Of a stretch of 64,000 nucleotides of DNA, positions 49,987 to 56,070 are shown piece after piece. Numbering within the stretch: the stretch's first letter is position 1; every line of letters begins with the position of its first letter. Made by a program: the position numbers and the translations under genes. Source of the DNA: Sutcliffiella horikoshii DSM 8719 (GTDB lineage Bacteria > Bacillota > Bacilli > Bacillales > Bacillaceae_I); the NCBI GenBank assembly GCA_001648575.1, contig LQXN01000060.1:1-64000 (forward strand), written 5' to 3'. Under the pieces are notes generated by a model. That model worked only from the letters and a program-made list of their open reading frames with translations. It did not search any database and was not told the origin of the DNA.

Positions 49987-50119
49987 TCACTTTTCTAAAG
50001 AAAATTCAGAATCTTACCATCGTGCGATTGGTAAATCTCCCCTCCTTAAATATTCCTACAAAATCATTAAACCTTTTTTCCTCTATTTCGTTATAATTAG
50101 TGAAGGATTAAGAAACCAC

Positions 50120-50232: not shown

Positions 50233-51099
50233 ATGATTGAAATTCGCAACCTATCAAAAACTTATAACCAACATCAAGCGCTATCTTCTGTCAATCTGCG
50301 AATTTCCACAGGCATTTTTGGACTACTTGGACCAAATGGTGCAGGGAAATCCACACTTATGCGAATTATGGCGACATTAATGAAGCCTTCTACAGGGGAT
50401 GTCTTTATCGACTCCCTTTCCATAAATGCTCACCCAGAAAAAGTGCGCAGAATGATCGGGTACCTGCCTCAACACTTCCATGTCTACCCCCAATTAACAC
50501 CTATTGAAATCCTTGATTATGTCGGGGTGATGAAAGGCCTGACAAACAAGCAAGAACGGAAGGAACAGATTCTTCATTGGTTGCACGAGGTGAATCTGAC
50601 CTCCAAAGCAAATGATAAATTGAAAACATTCTCTCACGGGATGAAGCAACGTGTCGGAATTGCCCAGGCATTCATGGGAAATCCAAAACTTATCGTATTG
50701 GATGAACCAACCGTAGGACTTGACCCAGAGGAGCGCCTCCGTTTTCGCAATCTCCTTTCTAAGGAAGCATTGAACAAAAGCATTCTTCTTTCTACCCATG
50801 TTGTGACAGACATCGAAAGCAGCTGCTATGAACTTGCAGTTTTAAAAAAAGGCGAGCTCATATTGGATGCTACAGTGGATCAATTAAAAGAAAGGGCATG
50901 CGGAAAAGTTTGGGAGGGAATCGTGCCACCGGGATATCTGGAAAACCTTGCAGAGGATACCATTTTATCCTCCGAGCATCGGGGCACCACCATTCATGCA
51001 CGTGTACTAGCGGAAGAAAAACCTTTTAATGGAGCAGTAATGCTAGATCCCAATTTGGAGGATGGCTACCTTGCGCTTCTAGGAGGGACTTCCTCATGA
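50233..51099 (+). CDS. ABC transporter ATPase, ABC-2 type
   Basis: A 288-residue ATP-binding subunit. Walker A GPNGAGKST, signature LTPIEILDYVGVMKG-type Q-loop region, ABC signature FSHGMKQRVGIA, Walker B LIVLDEPTVGLDP and switch His (STHV). It belongs to the BcrA/YxlF-like drug, lantibiotic or stress export group. It partners with the membrane protein encoded directly downstream (4-nt ATGA overlap). First gene of a five-gene operon. Confidence 0.92.
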   Translation: MIEIRNLSKTYNQHQALSSVNLRISTGIFGLLGPNGAGKSTLMRIMATLMKPSTGDVFIDSLSINAHPEKVRRMIGYLPQHFHVYPQLTPIEILDYVGVMKGLTNKQERKEQILHWLHEVNLTSKANDKLKTFSHGMKQRVGIAQAFMGNPKLIVLDEPTVGLDPEERLRFRNLLSKEALNKSILLSTHVVTDIESSCYELAVLKKGELILDATVDQLKERACGKVWEGIVPPGYLENLAEDTILSSEHRGTTIHARVLAEEKPFNGAVMLDPNLEDGYLALLGGTSS

Positions 51100-53390
51100 A
51101 ATTTCTCAAACAACTGCAAATGGAAGGCAGATTCATCTTTAAGAATTGGTTCTTCCTTATAGCACCATTTATATATTGGGCGGGAATGGCCTTCTGGTTG
51201 TCCAATGAGAAGCAAGGCGGCATTCATTATTACAGCCAATATATTGTGAGCTTCTATAGAGCGAATAATGAATTTCTTGCGATTGGGCATACCCTTTCAC
51301 TTGGGGTAATATTCTTGGCAAGTGTGCTTGCAATACGCAGGGATAAACAGACCGTGTTAATGGATTGGACGAATTCCCTTCCAAATTCCTTTCTATCCAT
51401 TATCCTAGCAAAGTATTTATCCCTATTTCTTTACAGTAGTATTTTTACACTTTTTTTCTATATTACTTTCATATGGCAAGGGTACACATATGGAGAAAGC
51501 TTCAACAATTTGATGGAACACGGTTTACTCCTTGCCATTCAAAGTCAGTTATCTTATGGGGTTTCCATTGCCTTGGGAATGGTGCTTGCCGTCTTGATCT
51601 CTAATAGGATTGTTTACATCATCGTCTTTTGTGCATGGATGTTCGGCACCTTTTTTATGGAAGGATATATTATTCAAAGATATAGTTTATTTTTCTTAAA
51701 GACTTTCCATTTAAATCAATTTTTTCTTGATGCATCATACTCCAGTGATTGGGGCAGCAGATTAGCAAGAAAGGAAACTATCTATTCTCAGTTGTTTGTC
51801 TTCTTTTTCAGTCTTTTCTTACTGGCCATAACGATAATCAAGTCTTCCACTGACAGGATATCTTCCTTTGAAAAACGGAAATGGGCATTCTTTGGGGTGG
51901 TGACCATCCTGACCTTGGCCTCCTTTGTTCCATACGGTGCTTTCTGGTTCGACCGTGTGAACCACTATGAACAATTAAAATCCAGTGCCGTCAATCATTG
52001 GGACGAGGATACAGGAGAAACTTTGAATACAGTGGGAGAATTTTATGATGTTGATAGCTACTCGCTGGTGATGGAGCGGCAGGGCAATTCCAAAATAGCC
52101 GTTCATTCAACGATGAAGATTCCTTCAACTGAGAATGAGGAAGTACTTCCCGTTCACTTTACCCTATATCCCACTTTTGAAGTCGAATCGGTGATATGGA
52201 ATGGTGTGGAAACGGCCTTTGTAAAAGAAGGTCACCTCATTACGCTTCCTCAGATAGAGGGGCAGGAAGTAAATACCTTGGAAGTGCACTATACAGGAAC
52301 CCTTCATGAATGGGGGCTTGTTTATGGAGATGAGAAGTATTTTGCTTTCTTGGATAAAGGGGATATGTATTTCCCATCTTATATCGGATGGTACCCGCTG
52401 CCAGGAGATTATCCCGTATTTACTTCCATGCAAGGTCAAATGGAGACTTATATAAATACCATTCAATACAACCGCCCTATTGAATTGAACCAGAAGTTAC
52501 CACTTTCAGACTTTGAAGTGACATTGAAAAATTTCGGTCAAGAGGTATTCAGTACTGGTCACGAAAGCTCCATTGAAGCAGACGGTTCCCAATTCTTTAA
52601 TAGCCAGGATGCAAAAGGAATTACGCTATTTTCCAATACAGGGCTTGTAGAAAGCAAAGAGAATTCTCCTTTTCCCATTATAGCCCATGAAAAAAACATC
52701 CCGATCCTACAACAACAACTTGATGATATTTCAGAGGTTGAAGACTATTTCAATGATTGGTTAGGTGAAACTATTCAATATAATATGAAACTAGCATATA
52801 TCCCTTCCCTTACCATAGTCGGGGCTGACAATTATTTTTTAAATCATTTTGATGAAGCAGTGTTTTTTGATGACAGTGTACAGACATATGTTCATCTAAC
52901 CGATGGAAACTTGATGAATAACACAATGACAGATTTAAAAGCACGACTGCTGTCTTTTATGTTGTTTGGACATCGCATAGCCGATTTCTCCTACTATTCA
53001 GAGGACTCTGTGGTGGACGCTGTTGCCCAAGCATATCTTCTTGTACTGTATAAGGATTTTTACGGGGTTGACTGGGAAGAGTTCGATCAATTTAACGGCA
53101 CCCAATTCTATTACCTTTCCACGGTCTCCCATATAAACTGGATGTCATCATCCAGTGAAATGACAACATTGGATAAATTCGAGGAACTTATTGATTCCCA
53201 TCACCTTCAATATAATGACCTAGTGGTATTGATGGTTGCAAAAGAGATTGAGAAAGGCAATATGAAAGAAATAAAGGAATTGCTGAAAGATGTCTATCAG
53301 GAAATTAAAATTAATAACAAAAAACCATTCACTTATAAAGAGTGGATGACCAATTGGAATCGCACGTTTGAAAGTGGGGGAATGCGATGA
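51096..53390 (+). CDS. ABC permease fused to degenerate M1-peptidase-like domain
   Basis: A 764-residue membrane protein. The first ~285 residues form about six to seven transmembrane helices like an ABC-2 permease. A large extracytoplasmic region follows, with the beta-sandwich features of M1 aminopeptidase N-terminal domains (VHFTLYP, ITLPQIEGQEVNTLEVHY, FPSYIGWYPLPGDYP) and a helical C-terminal half. The M1 zinc motif HExxH and its distal Glu are not found; the corresponding region reads LFGHRIADFSYYSED. It is therefore probably a non-catalytic binding module. The start overlaps the ATPase gene and the end overlaps the sigma factor gene, each by 4 nt. Confidence 0.8.
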   Translation: MKFLKQLQMEGRFIFKNWFFLIAPFIYWAGMAFWLSNEKQGGIHYYSQYIVSFYRANNEFLAIGHTLSLGVIFLASVLAIRRDKQTVLMDWTNSLPNSFLSIILAKYLSLFLYSSIFTLFFYITFIWQGYTYGESFNNLMEHGLLLAIQSQLSYGVSIALGMVLAVLISNRIVYIIVFCAWMFGTFFMEGYIIQRYSLFFLKTFHLNQFFLDASYSSDWGSRLARKETIYSQLFVFFFSLFLLAITIIKSSTDRISSFEKRKWAFFGVVTILTLASFVPYGAFWFDRVNHYEQLKSSAVNHWDEDTGETLNTVGEFYDVDSYSLVMERQGNSKIAVHSTMKIPSTENEEVLPVHFTLYPTFEVESVIWNGVETAFVKEGHLITLPQIEGQEVNTLEVHYTGTLHEWGLVYGDEKYFAFLDKGDMYFPSYIGWYPLPGDYPVFTSMQGQMETYINTIQYNRPIELNQKLPLSDFEVTLKNFGQEVFSTGHESSIEADGSQFFNSQDAKGITLFSNTGLVESKENSPFPIIAHEKNIPILQQQLDDISEVEDYFNDWLGETIQYNMKLAYIPSLTIVGADNYFLNHFDEAVFFDDSVQTYVHLTDGNLMNNTMTDLKARLLSFMLFGHRIADFSYYSEDSVVDAVAQAYLLVLYKDFYGVDWEEFDQFNGTQFYYLSTVSHINWMSSSSEMTTLDKFEELIDSHHLQYNDLVVLMVAKEIEKGNMKEIKELLKDVYQEIKINNKKPFTYKEWMTNWNRTFESGGMR

Positions 53391-53971
53391 TAAGTGATGA
53401 AAAGCTCCTTGAACAGATGGCTGATGGAGACCAGGCCGCCTTTGAAGCATTTGTGCACCGTTACCATGTAGCCATATATCAATATGTCGAGCGACTTTTA
53501 AAAGATTCAAAAAAAGCCGAAGATGTAGTACAAGAAACATTTATCCGCCTTTTAAAACAGTTGAAGAACAAACAGATACCAACCTATCCAAAAGCATGGA
53601 TGTACAGAGTGGCATCTAATATCTGTAAAGATTACTGGCGGAGTGCTCAATATCGTTCCGAGGATACCGCAAAAGAGGAAATGCCTGTAACAGTGGACCA
53701 ACAGGCTTCCGTCATTGAAATTTATGAACGACAAGAGACTAGAAAAGAAATATTGGCATCATTGAAAAATTTATCGGAAACGCAACAACAGATCGTCACT
53801 TTACGATTTTATCAAGATATGAAACTGAAAGAGATCGCTGAAATCCTCGATTTACCACTAGGGACAGTCAAGTCAAACCTGTTTCATGCTTTAAAGAGGT
53901 TAAAAGGGGTATTATCGAAAGAAGCGGAAAAGGAGGCGGAAAGACATGAAGGAACAACACAATCAAGATAA
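53387..53971 (+). CDS. ECF-type RNA polymerase sigma factor
   Basis: A 194-residue sigma-70-family ECF factor. Region 2 (about 20-90; AEDVVQETFIRLLKQL, AWMYRVASNICKDYWR) recognises the -10 element. Region 4 (about 125-180; LSETQQQIVTLRFYQDMKLKEIAEIL, LGTVKSNLFHALKRL) binds the -35. It overlaps the permease gene by 4 nt and the next gene by 26 nt. It is likely the regulator of this ABC system and perhaps of distant targets, but no ECF promoter could be confirmed here. Confidence 0.92.
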   Translation: MISDEKLLEQMADGDQAAFEAFVHRYHVAIYQYVERLLKDSKKAEDVVQETFIRLLKQLKNKQIPTYPKAWMYRVASNICKDYWRSAQYRSEDTAKEEMPVTVDQQASVIEIYERQETRKEILASLKNLSETQQQIVTLRFYQDMKLKEIAEILDLPLGTVKSNLFHALKRLKGVLSKEAEKEAERHEGTTQSR

Positions 53972-54761
53972 AGAGCTTTATCAACTAGAAGATGAAATGA
54001 AAGATACGTTTACTTCATATGTGGTGAAAACTCCATCCAGCCAGGATACAAAAGCGCTACTTGCCGCTTTGCAGCCAGCTTTTGATGAAATTGGAAAGGA
54101 ACCCGCAGAAGAGCCTGTTCATGAAATGATTAAAGCACCGAGCTTTCTTTCCCAGCTCAAAGCACAGGTTTCTTTTTATCAATGGCATTTTTGGATTGCA
54201 AGCACACTGATTTTCGTAATGCTGACACTTTTTTCATCAACTTATCTATTAAATGACGCCATTCTGATTTATCAGTTTGCCATTCCTTTATCCATGCTCG
54301 TTGGGGTTTTCTATACGTATCAGACCTGGAACAAGCAAATGCGTACAATAGAAGGGATCACCCCCTTCCCGCCTGCCTTGCTGTTGCTCAGTCGCATGGT
54401 AATCATCTTGATCATGAATATAATCATGGGGATTGTCAGTTCAATTTATTTAAGCTTTAGTATGGATCACTTCAAACTGCTTCCGTTTTTATTGCACTGG
54501 ATTGCACCTGCATTGTTGATTTACGGGATCATTGCCTATGTCATGATGCAAAAGGGCGTAAAGAAAGGTCTTGCCCTTGGTATGGCTTGCTGGATTGGAT
54601 TGATGATGGCTGCTTTTGTTTATCAAGCGTCTCCGGGCACATTCATCCAATTAACTTATACCAAAGTAGCCGGCATTCAGGGAGCATTTGTCATAATTGG
54701 AGCATTACTCCTATTCCTCTCTTATAAAAAAAGCTTAGAATTACAAACCATGTTTCGTTAG
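53946..54761 (+). CDS. six-helix membrane protein, candidate anti-sigma factor
   Basis: A 271-residue protein. A soluble acidic N-terminal ~75 residues (ending FLSQLKAQVSFYQWHF) is followed by about six transmembrane helices. No zinc-type anti-sigma motif (HxxxCxxC) is present. Its position 26 nt inside the sigma gene and its soluble-then-membrane layout suggest a membrane anti-sigma factor. The six helices could equally form the permease partner of the ATPase encoded next. I do not recognise a named family. Confidence 0.65.
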   Translation: MKEQHNQDKELYQLEDEMKDTFTSYVVKTPSSQDTKALLAALQPAFDEIGKEPAEEPVHEMIKAPSFLSQLKAQVSFYQWHFWIASTLIFVMLTLFSSTYLLNDAILIYQFAIPLSMLVGVFYTYQTWNKQMRTIEGITPFPPALLLLSRMVIILIMNIIMGIVSSIYLSFSMDHFKLLPFLLHWIAPALLIYGIIAYVMMQKGVKKGLALGMACWIGLMMAAFVYQASPGTFIQLTYTKVAGIQGAFVIIGALLLFLSYKKSLELQTMFR

Positions 54762-54775
54762 ATTGAGGCGAGAAT

Positions 54776-55642
54776 ATGTTACACATCCAAGATATAGTCT
54801 GGAAATATAAAAACTTCTCTTTAACTATTGATGAATTAACACTCAAAAATGGAATCACCATCCTTGTAGGGAATAACGGGTCGGGAAAGTCGACCCTCCT
54901 TCACCTTTTGGCCACCGCAAACAAGGCATCAAAAGGAACCATATCTTATAACAAGGATACAATGGATTCAAACCTTGTAGCTGTGCGAAGCAGAATAGGT
55001 TTTGTCCCGACAGGCATCGAGCTTTATCCGGATTTCACGCCCGTAAAACTACTTATGTACATGTCTCAACTAAAAGGGTTGAGAAAAGAATTTTCAAAAA
55101 GACAAACCCAAGAATTGCTAAAGGTTTTTCACTTGGAAGATGTACAGAAAACAAAAATTAAAAAGCTGTCCCAAGGAATGCAACAACGATTGGCATTGGC
55201 ACAGGCATTTCTCGGGAAGCCCACCTACATTTTTCTGGATGAACCCCTGAACTTCTTGGATATCCATGAACGGAAAAGTTTGTTGAACTATATAGCGAAA
55301 TTAGCTCCACACTGTGTCATTCTCGTTGCCACCCATGAATTAAATGAATGGGGACCGGTTTGCCATGATGTATTATGGATGCACCAAGGAAAGGTCCTTT
55401 TCTTCGGAAGCAAAACTATGTGGAAGCATAGCCTTCCCCTAACAGTCTGGACCGGTGAAATCCTAGACACATTTTATGAAGATTTCTCCCAACACAATTT
55501 AATTGTATTTGCCGGCAGGATGAAAGATAGACTCATCGTGCGATGTGCCAGCAAAACAAAACCTTCAGTGGGCTTTGAAGAAACCGCTCCCACCATGGAA
55601 GACACATTCTTTATAAGAAAACACTCAAAAGAAGCTAACTAG
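54776..55642 (+). CDS. second ABC transporter ATPase of the operon
   Basis: A 288-residue ATP-binding protein. Walker A VGNNGSGKST, signature LSQGMQQRLALAQAF, Walker B YIFLDEPLNFLD and switch His (ATHEL). It is distinct in sequence from the ATPase at 50233. Begins 14 bp after the membrane protein gene. Its stop codon lies inside the 22-bp terminator hairpin that is duplicated around a family A repeat. The C-terminal ~80 residues are not conserved NBD sequence. Confidence 0.88.
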   Translation: MLHIQDIVWKYKNFSLTIDELTLKNGITILVGNNGSGKSTLLHLLATANKASKGTISYNKDTMDSNLVAVRSRIGFVPTGIELYPDFTPVKLLMYMSQLKGLRKEFSKRQTQELLKVFHLEDVQKTKIKKLSQGMQQRLALAQAFLGKPTYIFLDEPLNFLDIHERKSLLNYIAKLAPHCVILVATHELNEWGPVCHDVLWMHQGKVLFFGSKTMWKHSLPLTVWTGEILDTFYEDFSQHNLIVFAGRMKDRLIVRCASKTKPSVGFEETAPTMEDTFFIRKHSKEAN

Positions 55643-55649: not shown

Positions 55650-55856
55650 CAGTGTGTAGACAAAGCTTAAAATAATGAAATTCCCTAGTTGATCGTAGTG
55701 GAAGGAGCGTAGACTCCTGCGGGAGGAAGGGACAGGTAAGACCCCGCAACGGAGTGAGGAGGCTTACGGACCGCCCGCTGGAAAGCGTAGCTCCTGCAAC
55801 GGAGAACAACCGTTCCAACAGATAACTCAACTGATTTTTAGTTTGTCAACAGTCTG
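55650..55856 (+). mobile_element. family A repeat behind the ABC operon
   Basis: A 207-bp insertion with the best preserved ends (CAGTGTGTAGACAAAG; GTTTGTCAACAGTCTG) and one core (55688-55810). It is flanked by perfect 22-bp copies of the terminator hairpin. No ORF of its own. Confidence 0.85.
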
Positions 55857-55878: not shown

Positions 55879-56070
55879 CTTTGTATAGATAAAGTCTTAA
55901 AAAATTAGCAAACCCATGTTGATCGCAGTGGAAGGCGCGCAGACTCCTGTGGGAGGAAGGGACAGGGAAAGATCCCTGCATGCCTAGCCGAGAAGGCTTA
56001 CGGACCCCACTGGAAAGCGATGCGCCTGCTATGAAAATCATCTGTTTCACCAGATAACTTAACTAGCGTA
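55879..56070 (+). mobile_element. second, decayed family A repeat in tandem
   Basis: Begins CTTTGTATAGATAAAG, a variant of the usual left end. Core from about 55918 to 56042 with several deletions and substitutions. The right end is eroded; a fragment AACTTCTTTT around 56077-56086 may be the remains of a third hairpin copy. Confidence 0.65.

Follow-up and report, generated by a model that had tools for sequence, protein, structure and literature searches.

A conserved operon combining an ECF sigma factor with two ABC-2 permeases and a pseudo-M1 aminopeptidase domain in Sutcliffiella horikoshii

We analysed a 64,000-nucleotide stretch of Sutcliffiella horikoshii DSM 8719 (contig LQXN01000060.1, positions 1 to 64,000; hereafter the window), in which five open frames, all on the + strand, lie within 50233-55642. 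The first encodes an ATP-binding cassette (ABC) ATPase of 288 residues (A1; 50233..51099). It is followed by a 764-residue ABC-2 permease with a pseudo-M1 aminopeptidase domain (PERM; 51096..53390), an extracytoplasmic function (ECF) sigma factor of 194 residues that is not SigY (SIG; 53387..53971), a 271-residue ABC-2 permease that is a candidate sigma tether (TM6; 53946..54761) and a second, distinct ABC ATPase, also of 288 residues (A2; 54776..55642). Neighbouring frames overlap by 4, 4 and 26 nt, and a gap of 14 nt separates the last two. An earlier description of the window, made without database searches (the sequence-only reading), had proposed five tightly overlapping genes with this spacing. 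The frame coordinates confirm it, and a single operon-like unit is supported. A putative ECF-type promoter (-35 AAC, -10 CGTT, spacer 16) is located ~140 nt 5' of A1, at 50069..50096 on the + strand. Its gene order and promoter are conserved, and it encodes two ATPases and a pair of ABC-2 permeases, one with a predicted M1 fold that lacks the zinc motif and the other with a tail that accompanies the sigma gene. Two findings go beyond the sequence-only reading: TM6 is a further ABC-2 permease whose two-helix tail is conserved, and an ECF-type promoter precedes the operon. The interpretation offered in the sequence-only reading is partly supported. We see an even chance that the operon encodes an ABC-2 exporter with an autoregulated ECF sigma system integrated into it.

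The arrangement of the genes is strongly conserved. A search for the gene order in other Firmicutes had been suggested by the sequence-only reading; in all 45 wide loci fetched via PERM, the A1-PERM-SIG-TM6-A2 order and strand are kept (L020-L064; 44 of these are distinct, as L057 repeats L028, and L047, L051 and L054 contain broken frames). The arrangement is therefore not a matter of chance. The hosts are Sutcliffiella, other Bacillus-type bacteria, Paenibacillus and Fontibacillus, and the nearest named loci belong to Sutcliffiella (Bacillus) horikoshii, with a PERM identity of 75%. The SIG and TM6 frames overlap in 44 of the 45 loci; the exception (L054) is itself broken. Surveys of 397 genomes of the order and of a class-wide sample of 398 genomes point the same way. 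TM6 has a match in 36 of the order genomes, and in each of them SIG lies directly 5' of TM6 with overlapping open frames. In the class-wide sample 18 genomes match, two of them already in the order count. Among the 16 loci that this sample adds, 15 again have the sigma gene directly 5' of TM6 with overlapping frames. The exception is L153, where a weak match is confined to the membrane part of TM6. The PERM query matches in 62 of the 397 order genomes, 35 strongly (E under 1e-25) and 27 weakly. The 35 strong genomes are the 36 with TM6 minus one, G139.

Both ATPases match PF00005 in Pfam (E 6e-31 for A1, 4e-26 for A2), and the Walker A and B motifs are present in 42/42 homologues of each. The signature and the H-loop were found in all 42 homologues of A1. 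For A2 the signature pattern caught 20/42 and the H-loop pattern 19/42; inspection of 14 A2 sequences by eye revealed a variable signature of the LSxG or MSxG type and a His-containing, HELNEW-like H-loop. Judging by these motifs, A1 and A2 both look active. SIG matches PF04542 (region 2, E 2.7e-15) and PF08281 (region 4, E 4.5e-16). The ECF sigma factor and the two ABC ATPases of the sequence-only reading are thus borne out by Pfam matches and intact Walker motifs. SIG was also considered as a SigY orthologue, which was rejected because it scores 98.5 bits against the NF007216 cut-off of 194. The same genome encodes a separate SigY (245 bits, C3:3964-4494), to which SIG is 20% identical.

In Pfam, PERM has only a sub-threshold ABC-2 match and TM6 no match up to E 1. 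Predicted structures were examined for both. The PERM model (predicted template modelling score, pTM, 0.82) contains an ABC-2 permease in residues 1-256. This membrane part matches the membrane chain of NosDFY, which aligns with PERM 1-253 (Z 22.1, root mean square deviation (rmsd) 2.6, 233 residues aligned). A further membrane helix within residues 259-297 follows the permease part, and residues ~310-764 are predicted to adopt the M1 aminopeptidase fold, with a beta domain and a catalytic domain. Structural matches to this region include IRAP, ERAP1 and LTA4H (Z 16-17, rmsd ~5-6, ~340-375 residues). For instance, IRAP (7zyf) aligns with PERM 311-758 over 359 residues with a Z of 17.2 and an rmsd of 5.8, and Foldseek matches PERM to M1 proteins with E down to 1.3e-9. 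The ABC-2 topology and a basic loop before the 259-297 helix suggest that the M1 part is extracytoplasmic.

The M1 fold of PERM is not accompanied by its zinc motif. Of 37 PERM homologues, 36 lack HExxH altogether, and the sole instance, HEPQH in L052, is outside the aligned zinc-helix region. The 15 Pfam families matched by the 37 homologues (E up to 0.1) include no peptidase family, and Peptidase_M1 is thus absent as well. An active M1 peptidase was rejected, since HExxH is missing. The sequence-only reading had described a 764-residue permease with an M1-like domain that lacks HExxH; the fold is clear in the predicted model, and a check of the fold and the zinc site on that model did not refute the pseudo-peptidase reading. 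It appears that a peptidase fold has been turned into a receptor-like part of a transporter. From the 27 genomes with weak PERM matches, 16 loci were fetched. In 14 of them an A1-like ATPase frame is always present and no frame of at least 90 residues contains HExxH; pseudo-M1 exporters thus form a wider family. In the remaining two, an M1 domain that retains an intact HEIAHQ is fused to an OppC-like permease (L168:934-3396; L169:1285-3681). These fusions resemble PERM in joining an M1 domain to an ABC permease, but the permease is of the importer type (BPD_transp_1) and the zinc motif is intact. Their M1 domain, which matches Pfam Peptidase_M1, aligns weakly to PERM 310-604, with low confidence near the zinc motif.

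TM6 had been described in the sequence-only reading as a six-helix membrane protein. It is more than that, since residues 64-270 are an ABC-2 permease preceded by an N-terminal tail. In the predicted model (pTM 0.63) the helices past the tail follow the ABC-2 permease order. All 50 matches listed for residues 64-270 are to membrane domains of ABC transporters, the top one among them having a Z of 14.1, an rmsd of 4.2 and 192 aligned residues, which is weaker than the match of the PERM membrane part. The tail (residues 1-63; 53946..54134, + strand) is a candidate anti-sigma segment. Its helices are predicted, at low confidence, at residues 3-25 and 32-51, and the ABC-2 topology makes it a candidate cytoplasmic segment. 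Column identity in the tail is 0.66 for residues 8-25, 0.71 for 30-47 and 0.47 for 48-63, compared with 0.53 for residues 78-271 and 0.77 for 129-150. The tail helices are somewhat more conserved than the membrane part of TM6, and less than residues 129-150. The tail pattern is kept in divergent TM6 members (33 aligned sequences).

Since this conserved tail was found only beside a sigma gene, a part of the transporter is the likely sigma tether. TM6, although a transporter permease, would be the membrane anchor of SIG, and it is probably its anti-sigma factor. Two-helix anti-sigma factors do exist, an example being CnrY (PMC7406223). TM6 has no match to Sigma_reg_N or Sigma_reg_C (PF13800/PF13791) in Pfam up to E 1. 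The tail was also compared with the N-termini of YxlC-like proteins, which are separate small proteins of SigY operons. The two align in register with an hhalign score of 15.6 (P 0.009). The best of 60 column permutations scored 12.5 and the reversed control 10.0, and among 44 control windows the highest scores were 12.5 when compared with the tail and 14.2 when compared with the YxlC profile. That profile comprises 30 proteins selected as YxlC-like by profile match, irrespective of a sigma neighbour. The comparison is only suggestive of a two-helix motif common to the TM6 tail and the YxlC N-terminus.

The operon appears to carry a conserved ECF-type promoter of the AAC/CGT type in front, which is a putative target of SIG. 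A strict pattern, AAC(C/T)TTT-N10-16-CGTT, is located 5' of A1 in 41 of 46 regions (45 distinct), with a spacer of 12 or 13 in every match. Elsewhere in the 45 loci it occurs three times (1.27 Mb, both strands), and one of these matches lies 421 nt 5' of A1 in L030. Of 55 regions, each 450 nt long, 48 contain the core, AAC-N16/17-CGTT, whereas 100 dinucleotide shuffles averaged 2.5 and never exceeded 7; the match at -339 in L037 may be due to chance. A shorter form, AAC-N16/17-CGT, which was picked after the misses of the CGTT core were seen, is present in 54/55 regions (7.0 in shuffles) and in 9 of the 10 loci outside the discovery set (expected 1.1). In the 4.68-Mb genome of the organism, the strict pattern occurs once and a looser pattern at the same place only. 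The regulon is likely the operon itself, judging by these pattern matches. As the looser pattern gave 4 chance matches in this genome when reversed as a control, weaker genomic sites cannot be judged.

Other sequence elements were noticed around the promoter and the operon. Many Paenibacillaceae loci, such as L033, L034 and L039 (uncounted), have a CCGCGCGG-like palindrome ~15-25 nt past the -10 element, possibly an operator or an RNA element. By eye, a repeat of roughly 150 bp occurs twice 3' of the operon, at about 55660-55830 and 55880-56045 of the window, and similar-looking sequence lies between the promoter and A1 in L021, L022, L027, L062 and L063.

We propose the following mechanism. 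At rest, the TM6 tail would tether SIG to the membrane, acting like a short anti-sigma factor of the two-helix (class II-like) kind. The pseudo-M1 domain of PERM would be the outside sensor and bind a peptide-like ligand. Ligand binding, or the ATP-driven movement after it, would displace the tail from SIG. The freed SIG would then transcribe its own operon in a positive feedback, and the amount of transporter would rise until the ligand is gone. We infer the binding of SIG by the tail, the ligand and the release of SIG. Because the five-gene form encodes two permeases and two ATPases, neither more nor fewer, these could assemble into a single PERM-TM6-A1-A2 heterotetramer, in which the extracellular sensor and the cytoplasmic tail would be directly connected. 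In the most specific version of this proposal the exporter itself is the anti-sigma factor, with the tail on one permease and a peptide-binding dead aminopeptidase on its partner, and ATP-driven movement, not proteolysis, frees SIG. We hold this version tentatively and put it at somewhat below an even chance.

Several observations weigh against a sigma system built into the exporter. Foldseek of TM6 returned no match at E <=0.001, and unrelated helical models can also attain a Z of ~14, even if the TM6 matches listed are ABC transporters. The tail has low confidence in the model (pLDDT block means 45-64), and the hhalign probability of its match to YxlC is 4.4%. The strict promoter pattern is absent from 5 of the 46 regions, and the CGTT core is found in only 3 of the 10 loci not used for its discovery (expected 0.5). 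Furthermore, no anti-sigma family was matched by the tail in either Pfam or the PDB sequences; the nine PDB entries listed for it are weak matches to unrelated proteins (E 0.38 and above), which by itself leaves room for a relation. The lack of a family match favours a reading in which the tail is merely structural, docking to A2, while SIG has no anti-sigma protein and is controlled by its level or by another partner. ECF groups that lack anti-sigma factors and have ABC transporters nearby are on record, for example ECF257 (PMC8999054). However, solved ABC relatives align only from TM6 residue 64 on, and the tail pattern persists in divergent members and is found only behind a sigma gene. A purely structural tail is in our judgement very unlikely.

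The gene content of some loci also belongs among the points against the exporter-built system. In 16 of the 45 wide loci an extra membrane protein of ~230-250 residues is encoded between PERM and SIG. It was judged ABC-2-like by eye, and of five such proteins tried in Pfam (L029, L033, L034, L060, L096) one, L029, gave a sub-threshold ABC-2 match. No intervening frame was found in the Sutcliffiella loci, whose PERM-SIG gap is too small for one. In addition, the locus of G139 (L102) encodes SIG, TM6, an ATPase and a 365-residue protein with a sub-threshold ABC-2 match in Pfam, without PERM. PERM is therefore not indispensable to the SIG-TM6 pair. The intervening protein makes two separate transporters possible. 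It could complete a transporter with A1 and PERM, such that the operon would combine SIG with two ABC-2 transporters working independently (A1+PERM and TM6+A2), TM6 being an ordinary anti-sigma factor and transport staying outside the signal. This would fit the PERM-free locus L102 and the clearly different types of A1 and A2. It would fit less well with the joint presence of PERM and TM6 in 35 of the 36 TM6-bearing order genomes and with the composition of the five-gene form, two permeases and two ATPases exactly. We regard two independent transporters as doubtful.

The link between pseudo-M1 transporters and ECF signalling extends to sister operons. At L164:120-4855 and L166:458-4785 (- strand), a sigma gene and an anti-sigma gene of the Sigma_reg type precede a pseudo-M1-type permease and an ATPase. 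The anti-sigma protein matches Sigma_reg_C above the Pfam cut-off and Sigma_reg_N just below it. The transporter is of the same type as here, but the anti-sigma protein is separate and of a canonical type. This arrangement supports a real link of the pseudo-M1 transporter type to ECF signalling.

Small open reading frames (ORFs) of 130-172 residues, with signal-peptide-like starts by eye, were observed 5' of the sister pseudo-M1 permease genes in 5 of 11 inspected loci (L155:922-1359; L159:25-543; L161:3909-4301, - strand; L163:3511-3903, - strand; L167:3345-3752, - strand). They match no Pfam or NCBIfam family of note, and they are possibly secreted peptides handled by those transporters. ABC-2 exporters often export peptides or antibiotics. 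Such ORFs directly 5' of the sister permease and ATPase genes would suit an immunity or detoxification operon against a secreted peptide or peptide antibiotic, in which the exporter removes the compound, the pseudo-M1 domain captures it and SIG merely induces the genes. On the other hand, the window has no + strand frame of at least 60 residues between 49763 and A1, and the lack of any family match for the small ORFs also speaks against this explanation, which we consider unlikely.

Among the known systems that come close to this one is the SigY operon. Its genes encode the sigma factor, YxlC, YxlD, YxlE, the YxlF ATPase and the YxlG permease. As read in L176 and L179, an ECF sigma gene likewise has genes for a small membrane protein and for an ATPase/permease pair behind it, and the N-terminus of the YxlC-like protein may have the two-helix motif of the TM6 tail. 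SigY operons differ in having one ATPase, no pseudo-M1 domain and a separate, small YxlC-like protein. The organism has its own SigY-type operon elsewhere (G000:C3:1-5200, L176), where a YxlC-like protein is encoded together with a single ATPase and a single permease, in keeping with the distinction from the sigY-yxl operon made in the sequence-only reading.

Other regulators show a more general likeness. PMC8999054 describes ECF257 as a group of ECF sigma factors that have ABC transporters and AAA ATPases in their neighbourhood and whose mechanism is unknown. By that description it resembles the present operon in its ABC transporter neighbours and in having no recognised anti-sigma factor, and it may be related to this system. 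A functional likeness exists to LytTR regulatory systems, in which, according to PMC6193735, a regulator gene is followed by a membrane inhibitor and the system is autoregulated. S. mutans has five LytTR systems, two of which are probably transcribed together with ABC transporter genes (PMC6193735). The LytTR regulator is a DNA-binding protein and not a sigma factor, and the accessible text of PMC6193735 does not describe the inhibitor as a permease. In the open-access literature we found no report of a permease-tethered ECF system or of this operon; most subscription papers were not covered.

Our analysis suggests an unusual partner for an ECF sigma factor. Usually, as also outlined in PMC6193735, switching involves a dedicated anti-sigma protein that is destroyed or remodelled. 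In the present operon this role seems to fall to a functional component of an ABC exporter, which would couple transport activity directly to transcription. The system is self-contained, and its family ranges over several genera of Bacillales and Paenibacillaceae. BceAB-type modules sense flux in a comparable way, but here the signal would pass through a sigma factor. If the proposal is true, gene expression would report transporter activity directly, amounting to flux sensing by an ECF sigma factor.

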